The notes beneath the pieces were generated by a model, which saw nothing but the letters and a program-made list of their open reading frames with translations, had not been told where the DNA came from and did no database searches. From assembly GCA_030684935.1 (NCBI GenBank), contig JAUXXH010000009.1, positions 1 to 64,000 of the forward strand: a DNA stretch of 64,000 nucleotides, read 5' to 3'. This stretch comes from Pseudolabrys sp. (GTDB lineage: Bacteria > Pseudomonadota > Alphaproteobacteria > Rhizobiales > Xanthobacteraceae). Every line of letters begins with the position of its first letter. Positions within the stretch are counted from its first letter, which is position 1. The position numbers and the translations under genes are program-made. This document shows positions 3,581-50,237 of the stretch, piece after piece.

Positions 3581-3710
3581 TTCACCTCCCCCTGGAGGGG
3601 GGAGGTCGGTTCGCGAAGCGAACCGGGAGGGGGTGAAAATACCGCTTCACCCCACCCCGGCGGACTTCGTCCGCCGACCCTCCCCCTCCAGGGGAGGGTA
3701 AGCAAGCCAC
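3581..3710. repeat. Dispersed palindromic repeat, class B (CCTCCCC type)
   Basis: Two G/C-run arms face each other: ACCTCCCCCTGGAGGGGGGAGGT with a GGTTCGCGAAGCGAACC hairpin on the left, and a CGGCGGACTTCGTCCGCCG hairpin plus CCCTCCCCCTCCAGGGGAGGG on the right. The whole unit can fold into a cruciform-like structure. Related copies occur at 7760-7870, 28652-28780, 31478-31608, and in split form around 49801-50237. It sits between the substrate-binding protein gene and livH. Confidence 0.8.
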
Positions 3711-7759: not shown

Positions 7760-7870
7760 CCCTCCCCCTGCAAGGGGGAGGGTCAGGGAGGGGTCATGTT
7801 AATGCCCACGTGACCGACCCCCACCCGCCCGCCTGCGGCGGGCGACCTCCCCCTTTTAGGGGGAGGTAAG
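7760..7870. repeat. Dispersed palindromic repeat, class B
   Basis: The left arm is CCTCCCCCTGCAAGGGGGAGGG. The right arm holds the GCCCGCCTGCGGCGGGC hairpin and CCTCCCCCTTTTAGGGGGAGG. It lies between the convergent SDR and desaturase genes, where it could also act as a bidirectional transcription barrier. It resembles the units at 3581 and 28652. Confidence 0.78.
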
Positions 7871-28651: not shown

Positions 28652-28780
28652 CTTCCTTCTTCTCCCCTCCCCCTTGTGGGGTGGGGTCGGGGGTGGGGGT
28701 AATTGATGTGACGCACGAAGGCCCCCCACCCCGACATGCTTCGCATGTCGACCCTCCCCACAAGGGGGAGGGTAAGAAAG
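28652..28780. repeat. Class B palindromic repeat between livG and livF (second system)
   Basis: The left arm CCCCTCCCCCTTGTGGGGTGGGGTCGGGGGTGGGGGTAA and right arm CCCCACCCCGACATGCTTCGCATGTCGACCCTCCCCACAAGGGGGAGGGTAAGAAAG are separated by about 20 bp. This is the closest intact relative of the split copy that surrounds the DUF559 gene at 49777-50175. Confidence 0.85.
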
Positions 28781-31477: not shown

Positions 31478-31608
31478 TCCCTCCCCTGAAAGGGGAGGGT
31501 GGCTGTGAACGAAGTGAACAGCCGGGTGGGGTCGCATTGAACGAGTCACCCCCCACCCGGCCGGCTTCGCCGGCCACCCTCCCCCAAAAGGGGGGAGGGA
31601 AAGAAGGA
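31478..31608. repeat. Class B palindromic repeat between substrate-binding protein and permease genes
   Basis: The left arm is CCCTCCCCTGAAAGGGGAGGG with a CTGTGAACGAAGTGAACAG hairpin. The right arm is GGCCGGCTTCGCCGGCC with CCCTCCCCCAAAAGGGGGGAGGG. It fills nearly all of the junction between the binding protein and the fused permease, as the unit at 3581 does in the first Liv operon. Confidence 0.82.
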
Positions 31609-49776: not shown

Positions 49777-50175
49777 TTATGCAGGCGGCGCGGGCTTGGA
49801 CTCCCCTCCCCCTTGCGGGGAGGGGTCGGGGGTGGGGGTAACCAGCCCGAGAGCATTTGTTATGATGGATGCAACGCCTTCGATGTTTGCAATCACGTCA
49901 CTATTCCAGAAACGCAAAACCCTGAAATCGTTTTGACGAAGATATTCGTCGCGTGTTGAGTCGGCACGAAGCCCGGCGGCCATGTTGTGCTGGCCGCCGT
50001 CCACCTCAATGACCAGCCGCGCCGAAAAACATGCGAAGTCGACGACAAATTGATCGATCGGAACCTGACGCCGGAAGTGAAATCCCTGGCCGCGCAACGT
50101 GCGGAGGAAACGCCAAAGCTTCCGCTCGGCATTGGTCGAGTTGGTGCGAAGATGGCGCGCTGTTTCGTTGGCCAT
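49777..50175 (-). CDS. DUF559 domain endonuclease-like protein nested in a repeat
   Basis: This is a 132-aa PD-(D/E)XK-fold nuclease-like protein related to very-short-patch-repair endonucleases. The core reads ERKLWRFLR, FHFRRQVPIDQFVVDFACF and LVIEVDGGQH, with the Asp, Glu and downstream His-type residues in the usual order, then RVLRFWNSDV. The last 22 residues (VTPTPDPSPQGGG and on) are translated from the left arm of a class B repeat. The start ATG lies 5 bp outside the right arm (50180-50237). The gene therefore occupies the place of the short central spacer found in intact repeat copies. Confidence 0.85.
   Translation of the reverse strand: MANETARHLRTNSTNAERKLWRFLRTLRGQGFHFRRQVPIDQFVVDFACFSARLVIEVDGGQHNMAAGLRADSTRDEYLRQNDFRVLRFWNSDVIANIEGVASIITNALGLVTPTPDPSPQGGGESKPAPPA
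49801..49841. repeat. Left arm of a split class B repeat, translated as the DUF559 C-terminus
   Basis: CTCCCCTCCCCCTTGCGGGGAGGGGTCGGGGGTGGGGGTAA matches the left arm of the intact unit at 28652 almost base for base. It lies inside the DUF559 coding region and supplies its VTPTPDPSPQGGG tail. Confidence 0.85.
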
Positions 50176-50179
50176 AAAT

Positions 50180-50237
50180 TCACCCCACCCCGCCCGCCTG
50201 CGGCGGGCGACCCTCCCCGTCAAGGGGAGGGTAAGAA
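50180..50237. repeat. Right arm of the split class B repeat flanking the DUF559 gene start
   Basis: TCACCCCACCCCGCCCGCCTGCGGCGGGCGACCCTCCCC followed by GTCAAGGGGAGGGTAAGAAG is the right arm of the unit, including the variable CCCGCCTGCGGCGGG hairpin. It ends 5 bp before the aminotransferase stop. Its partner arm is 338 bp away instead of the about 20 bp seen at 28652. Confidence 0.82.

Follow-up and report, generated by a model that had tools for sequence, protein, structure and literature searches.

Palindromic repeats for which no enzyme is known number from dozens to hundreds in many bacterial genomes. In the REPtron, REPs/REPINs are paired with a RAYT (TnpAREP) gene; RAYTs are present at low copy number and descend mainly vertically. 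RAYT-REP co-evolution is stated in the accessible part of PMC8266576. According to the accessible text of a 2013 survey (PMC3733652), CGTC repeats show no association with genes for transposases, and the link of untagged repeats to specific proteins is raised there as a question. The EDxHD or Vsr-like homing endonucleases form another relevant group, to which one DUF559 gene is assigned in the available portion of PMC9403480. In Caulobacter cells that lack a solitary cytosine methyltransferase, the DUF559-domain protein VsrA (CCNA_02930) causes DNA damage; the accessible part of PMC12907096 interprets it as an enzyme of repair. The Pfam entry DUF559 is a domain of unknown function. A repeated segment of Legionella pneumophila with a transposase and DUF559 is named as a recombination hotspot in the available text of PMC12308824, and the corresponding text of PMC5082802 holds nothing on the DUF559 gene family. 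Titles and abstract starts in the open-access literature (DUF559 with "palindromic") described no palindromes around the gene; subscription papers and most preprints lay outside this scope.

To compare these systems with a DUF559 locus from Pseudolabrys sp., we analyzed a stretch of 64,000 nucleotides, hereafter the window. Its minus-strand gene at 49777-50175 encodes a free-standing 132-aa protein that matched the Vsr-like Pfam profile DUF559 (PF04480) with E = 7.6e-35. The related MTES_1575 profile, below its cut-off, was the sole other Pfam match; neither Y1_Tnp nor a transposase with joining activity was among them, which agrees with the earlier note in placing the nuclease in a family different from RAYT. 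The solved endonuclease-like protein 3hrl is a relative (E 7.7e-20), and the curated Vsr model TIGR00632 gave no match (E 0.03; 14.6 bits against a cut-off of 97.85). Residues D46, E57, D59 and H63, which we take to be the catalytic residues of a PD-(D/E)XK nuclease, were invariant in 34 sequences. Assignment as a defence-system gene was rejected, as the protein gave only weak matches to stretches of large proteins.

The gene lies between two arms. Arm 1 comprises a main hairpin at 49803-49825 (stem CCCCTCCCC, loop CTTGC; pattern and folding) and a gene-facing, G-rich inner tail at 49826-49839. Arm 2 begins with a gene-facing, C-rich inner tail at 50181-50190 (CACCCCACCC), both tails being read from the sequence, and continues with an extra hairpin at 50191-50209 (CGCCCGCC-TGC-GGCGGGCG; sequence and folding) and a main hairpin at 50210-50232 (ACCCTCCCC-GTCAA-GGGGAGGGT; pattern and folding). 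The ATG at 50175 is 5 bases from the inner tail of arm 2, and the reading frame exits through arm 1 (...VTPTPDPSPQGGGESKPAPPA), so that the C-terminus is translated palindrome; both positions were as previously described. The two arms had been said to match those of a class B unit at 28652-28780, in which the same kind of arms is separated by a spacer of about 20 bp. This was confirmed for the arm at 49801-49841 (against 28662-28702, 95%, E 2e-11) and held weakly for the second arm (28724-28778, 76%, E 4e-4), which reached up to 88% elsewhere in the genome.

The arms of the window copy are not near-identical to each other and belong to related subclasses, one with the extra hairpin. Their inverted-repeat score was 15.5, compared with a 99% point of 13.5 and a maximum of 16.5 in 1110 control placements, a modest mutual score because the arms are of different subclass. 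In single-strand folding, arm 2 (z -6.1) and the gene-less unit at 28658-28772 (z -8.8) were far more stable than their shuffles, and the stability of arm 1 was no better than that of shuffles (z -0.8). Exact matches to the hairpin pattern numbered 7 in the window vs 0 in 100 dinucleotide-preserving shuffles. Together, the shuffles, the control placements and the relatives' copies described below (64/68) led us to reject a chance origin of the arms around the gene. A known RNA family was also rejected, since Rfam gave no match in the window at gathering scores.

The window also holds gene-less palindromic units at 3584-3698, 7760-7867, 28658-28772 and 31479-31599, of which the third belongs to the same class, has a short spacer and adopts a single long fold. 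The whole genome (G000) contained 140 hairpins of the pattern type. Among the gene-less copies listed, the spacers differed from one another and by eye contained no evident DUF559 remnant. When five gene-less G000 units were compared with the close sister genome G017, one was shared and four were absent or replaced. Two such units at compared sites showed no clear target-site duplication, and target bases were replaced. The units at 3680 (with DUF559) and 6708 of locus L231 were rearranged in the G017 comparison.

We then examined how regularly the gene is enclosed. The G000 assembly (3.67 Mb, 59 contigs) gave 8 DUF559 matches, and all seven free-standing genes lay between convergent hairpin arms, confirming that the gene sits exactly between the arms of a dispersed palindromic repeat; the eighth match, which forms the C-terminal portion of a SpoU-methylase protein, is arm-less. 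Once 39 more genomes were added, 23 from the genus and 16 from the order, 74 copies reached at least 100 bits; six of these were excluded for having a flank shorter than 230 bp next to a contig end. A hairpin was present on both sides in 64 of the 68 remaining free-standing copies, each with at least 230 bp of flank, so most DUF559 genes of the relatives are flanked. The inverted-repeat score was at least 17 in 63/68, compared with 16.5 for the best control; the five copies below 17 were L009, L014 (the window copy), L034, L035 and L072. The script found no hairpin on one side of L035, L037, L070 and L072. In L037 and L070, paired arms with longer loops were visible in the alignment, and no matching arm pair was present in L035 and L072, which come from other families within the order. 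The gene may put its arms to two further uses: the inner tail occupies the position expected of a ribosome-binding site, and in 50 of the 65 copies in which the tail of the right arm was found, the stop codon falls in the first part of that arm or further on.

Long-frame copies of 58-73 bits (L016, L040, L041, L043, L044 and L105) scored 7.0-14.5, similar to controls. In 22/24 Pseudolabrys genomes, a long frame (roughly 400 aa upward) contained a weak DUF559 match of 47-73 bits, and the long-frame protein tested against Pfam (L016) is a SpoU methylase with a C-terminal DUF559; these arm-less proteins are possibly domesticated DUF559. On Azospirillum megaplasmids (L265, L266 and L269-L272), tandem hairpins stood ahead of the DUF559 gene; the right arm was present in L269 and not visible in the other five of these six records.

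To determine what arm pairs enclose, we scanned 191 Pseudolabrys loci (1.20 Mb, DUF559-rich by choice) for unique convergent arm pairs. DUF559 was present in 62/62 pairs with gaps of 300-600 bp, in 2/3 at 160-300 bp, in 0/1 at 600-1500 bp and in 1/20 below 160 bp. The pair lacking DUF559 in the widest class had arms 1361 bp apart. A 219-bp insert within an arm pair of the TGGAGG-loop class (L231:6709-6965) was not DUF559, and its reading as a DUF559 remnant was dropped after six-frame translation. A stricter script gave DUF559 in 22/22 pairs at gaps of at least 300 bp before duplicate removal, and a script with poor recall in 14/14 at 300-600 bp. In 464 kb of the own genome (the window plus 400 kb of tiles on five contigs, two of them known to hold DUF559), the counts were 3/3 at 300-600 bp, 0/1 at 160-300 bp, no pair at 600-1500 bp and 0/12 below 160 bp. 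The results showed no unrelated gene in the 62 gene-sized inserts, contrary to the possibility that arms surround unrelated genes equally often.

The arms were then compared among the 64 copies that have a hairpin on each side. Mean likeness was 0.79 between the two arms of an element vs 0.41 between arms of different elements, so the terminal inverted repeats are specific to the element. Arms of different elements were no more alike within one genome (0.40) than between genomes (0.41), indicating that they are not homogenized by the host. Arm similarity correlated with protein similarity (Spearman 0.30; 1958 non-syntenic pairs), a value reached in 0 of 2000 permutations. By eye, a TGGAGG-loop stem marked one subfamily (L029, L052, L053, L065 and L071), and ACCCTCTCCCC occurred with VPAGFHHRP-type proteins. 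The arms thus follow the nuclease lineage and not the genome, and lineage-matched arms would be expected if the enzyme reads its own arms.

To follow units at orthologous sites, we used junctions whose gene names, read from the sequence, are presumably trpB-trpA, metF-metH and ureC, together with the window site. For each of the first two and the window site, the best 30 loci were taken from those matching in 40 genus genomes (40, 38 and 36 genomes had a match for trpB-trpA, metF-metH and the window site, respectively). At trpB-trpA, the two genes overlapped closely and naturally in 22/30 best loci (script value -7 in 19, -4 in 2 and -3 in 1). These 22 include G017, which shares 97% identity with G000 in the TrpB part. 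A whole arm-gene-arm unit of about 490 bp occupied the junction in G000 and G192. A gene-less palindrome of another class was found in G013, palindromes of other families in G193, G197 and G023, and 942 and 454 bp without DUF559 in G015 and G010, respectively. In G019, outside the best 30, a related copy lay beside the trpA match. ATGAGCAC stood on both sides of the unit in G000, which could be explained by selection for overlapping stop and start codons; no target-site duplication was consistent across the compared units. Other palindrome families (GTCATTCCGGG...CCCGGAATGAC) were observed at the same junctions, in L301 and L304 at trpB-trpA and in L310, L314, L318, L326 and L332 at metF-metH. 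The junction palindrome of L297 was a variant (GTCATCCCCGCG...), and in L304 ATGACCAC lay on both sides of the other-family palindrome.

At metF-metH, the unit was present in 7/30 best loci, and at most 32 bp separated the genes in 16/30. The rest comprised four loci with one hairpin or a gene-less remnant, two with another palindrome family only, and G006, which was unreadable. In G190 (L330), both arms, the start codon and a few codons were kept and the rest of the gene was gone. Among the best 30 loci of the window site, the window-type gene was found in G000 and G017, and another DUF559 type with other arms in G200, G194 and G013. G009 (L241) carried a gene with an internal deletion, so that G190 and G009 both represent internally deleted derivatives. 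A further 14/30 loci had 0-57 bp at the site, 13 of them hairpin-free by script and 12 by eye, and 10/30 had longer or other neighbours, including G021, in which a window-type copy follows after another 1.2 kb. The earlier note had asked whether allelic sites of sister strains carry short-spacer forms; orthologous sites without the unit were found, and mostly the whole unit was absent, not reduced to a short-spacer palindrome.

At the ureC site, the gene was reversed in place between G013 and G014 (L058 and L060) while the outer flanks were the same. The inner tails (TTAG or ACAG) went with the gene and the outer bases stayed, which places the exchange point inside the shared hairpin. All 15 copy pairs with at least 77% protein identity were at the same site, one of them reversed, suggesting that the form with the gene seldom moves. 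On Azospirillum and Sinorhizobium replicons, no clean insertion was found among strain-level empty sites; in S. meliloti Ak57, the gene of one copy was partly deleted and one arm was kept.

These junctions bear on the possibility that DUF559 is a free-standing, EDxHD-related homing endonuclease that cuts empty palindromes or a particular chromosomal junction and is copied in by recombination, which would make the palindromes its targets and not its offspring. The family placement of a DUF559 gene in the available text of PMC9403480, the patchy presence at the same junction across species with sisters lacking the unit, and the two DUF559 types at the window site in different species would all suit such an enzyme. 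However, most unoccupied relatives at trpB-trpA and metF-metH are palindrome-free, indicating that arms and gene appear together; a palindrome may have been there first at these junctions and been lost elsewhere later. The arms also match the nuclease lineage rather than the palindromes resident in each genome, and in no finite pair was the dS of DUF559 below that of both neighbouring genes, so that no recent allelic sweep was seen. As a test of recent transfer, dS was uninformative, being infinite in 6/24 syntenic ortholog pairs and above 1 in most others. We consider homing an unlikely explanation of the locus.

To assess whether the nuclease and the palindromes occur together, we counted hairpins of the pattern CCCTCYCCN{3,14}GGRGAGGG in genomes with and without free-standing DUF559 (at least 83 bits in Pseudolabrys). 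The 19 Pseudolabrys genomes with DUF559 had 7-187 hairpins, the five without had 0, 1, 11, 23 and 23, and a reversed-pattern control gave 0-1. The number of hairpins correlated with the number of DUF559 genes (Spearman 0.81, n = 24). The 16 genomes of the order pointed weakly in the same direction (p 0.036). In a phylum sample of 149 genomes, from which the own genome was left out, at least 10 hairpins were present in 21/28 genomes with DUF559 (E <= 1e-20) vs 6/121 without, and the reversed-pattern control gave 0-8. In families with both kinds of genomes, the mean number of hairpins was higher with DUF559 in 8/10 (sign test, p 0.055). The predicted correlation between DUF559 presence and palindrome number was therefore borne out in the genus and the phylum. 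Seven phylum-sample genomes with DUF559 had fewer than 10 hairpins, two of them (G126 and G050) none. The six hairpin-rich genomes without a DUF559 hit at E <= 1e-20 were G179 (113), G093 (71), G088 (33), G130 (25), G057 (12) and G128 (11); in G179 and G093, the gene may have been lost or be missing from an incomplete assembly, or the hairpins may have a different mover.

These six genomes are compatible with a second alternative, in which another enzyme (a RAYT/Y1 or IS transposase) moves the palindromes and the DUF559 element is their largest passenger; a lone nuclease without known joining activity and the one weak Y1_Tnp match in the own genome also accord with it. That match lies away from the arms, however, in a 3.3-kb locus without an exact hairpin, and Y1_Tnp was found in 0/23 other Pseudolabrys genomes, where hairpin counts reach 187, so that RAYT as the mover is unsupported in Pseudolabrys. 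Where the gap between arms was of gene size, DUF559 was the only gene found in it. On the Y1_Tnp search and this arm-pair scan, a different mover is in our estimation very unlikely.

Enclosure extended beyond the order. Among 80 named loci, taken as best matches to an alignment of the arm-flanked proteins and not as a random draw, 79 were scorable; 54/79 reached at least 17 and 25/79 stayed below, vs 2/2183 control placements at or above 17. By groups read from record titles, these best matches reached that score in 25/34 alphaproteobacterial, 10/17 gammaproteobacterial, 3/4 betaproteobacterial and 16/24 other loci, the last including Planctomycetota, Desulfobacterales and Melainabacteria. In the phylum-sample loci, the score was at least 17 in 19/29 and lower in 10/29, compared with 4/436 controls. 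Relatives of the window protein (tblastn E <= 1e-5) occurred in 45/72,556 plasmid and 2/50,697 phage records, and plasmid- or phage-borne spread was rejected on these counts.

The dN/dS of DUF559 was 0.05-0.14 in the 18/24 syntenic ortholog pairs with finite dS, figures that are rough because most dS values exceed 1; the three pairs with dS below 1 gave 0.05-0.08, and neighbouring genes gave 0.08-0.33. The protein is conserved by selection. Such purifying selection, together with the interpretation of Caulobacter VsrA as a repair enzyme in the accessible part of PMC12907096, would also fit a Vsr-type mismatch-repair gene standing without mechanistic link beside hairpins that are ordinary terminators or mRNA stabilizers, but this is most improbable given the convergent, lineage-matched arms on both sides, the lack of other enclosed genes of similar size, the coupling with dispersed copies and the presence or absence of whole units.

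Arms enclose the gene, orthologous sites differ in having or lacking the whole unit, internally deleted copies occur, and one copy has been reversed in place. The locus is probably a minimal mobile element of about 0.45 kb whose DUF559 nuclease reads and cuts its own arms, the short-spacer palindromes being its non-autonomous derivatives. The earlier note had proposed such an autonomous nuclease element with dependent palindromes; enclosure, lineage match, co-occurrence and presence or absence of units uphold this, and the role of the nuclease as the mover is what we infer from them. On our analysis, the best reading is a REPtron-like element with a PD-(D/E)XK nuclease as its enzyme.

As in the REPtron, one small enzyme gene lies between inverted, genome-dispersed palindromes, and enzyme and palindrome co-vary by lineage. 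Unlike the REPtron, which has an HUH (Y1) transposase, the element has a PD-(D/E)XK DUF559 nuclease; its arms often carry a second variable hairpin, and by eye the aligned arms showed no constant GTAG (or CGTC) foot tetranucleotide. The CGTC-tagged and untagged repeats of PMC3733652 are likewise dispersed palindromes, whereas here a dedicated nuclease gene lies between the arms; this likeness is one of description in the accessible part of the survey. EDxHD/Vsr-like homing endonucleases similarly occupy fixed sites patchily, but the present gene is in neither an intron nor an intein and comes with its own palindromic ends. Caulobacter VsrA shares the DUF559 domain and acts on DNA in vivo, and differs in being interpreted, in the available text of PMC12907096, as mismatch repair paired with a solitary methyltransferase; the repair role proposed there would be consistent with a selfish origin. 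Bacterial MITEs and their autonomous elements share terminal inverted repeats, internally deleted derivatives and insertion at new sites, whereas the present unit, no larger than about 0.45 kb with its gene, encodes no transposase and showed no constant target-site duplication.

Under the preferred reading of a nuclease-bearing mobile element, the element would consist of two convergent arms around one Vsr-like PD-(D/E)XK (DUF559) gene, each arm being a G+C-rich hairpin with an inner G-rich tail and often a second variable hairpin. Most likely, the nuclease recognizes arms of its own lineage in hairpin form, in DNA that is single-stranded or extruded. The arms would extrude during replication or transcription and be nicked or cut there by the nuclease. 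Host repair or replication would then copy the arm-to-arm unit into a break elsewhere or exchange the inner stretch, and this would also account for the reversal in place and for the copies with internal deletions. As the element encodes no joining activity, the joining is assumed to be done by host repair. Joining by repair accords better than a transposase with the lack of a constant target duplication and with the replaced target bases. Palindromes with a short spacer would have arisen by deletion and would still be open to cleavage. Binding and cutting of the arms by the nuclease, movement as the outcome of the cut and the manner of end joining are parts of the model drawn from the pattern of units.

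The chances appear evenly balanced that these elements represent a separate, phylum-spanning class of mobile DNA, about 0.45 kb in size, in which a lone PD-(D/E)XK nuclease cuts its own hairpin ends, the host does the joining and many untagged G+C-rich palindromes originate. DUF559 and its palindromes would be a convergent counterpart of RAYT and REP. Peptide tails such as PSPQGGGE would be explained as translated palindromes, according to the frames read here. The accessible text of the 2013 survey (PMC3733652) left the dedicated proteins of untagged palindromes open, and the function of DUF559 is unknown in Pfam; joining the two gives a testable enzyme-substrate pair. If this is true, lone-nuclease elements would supply a large share of the untagged G+C-rich palindromic repeats in bacteria.
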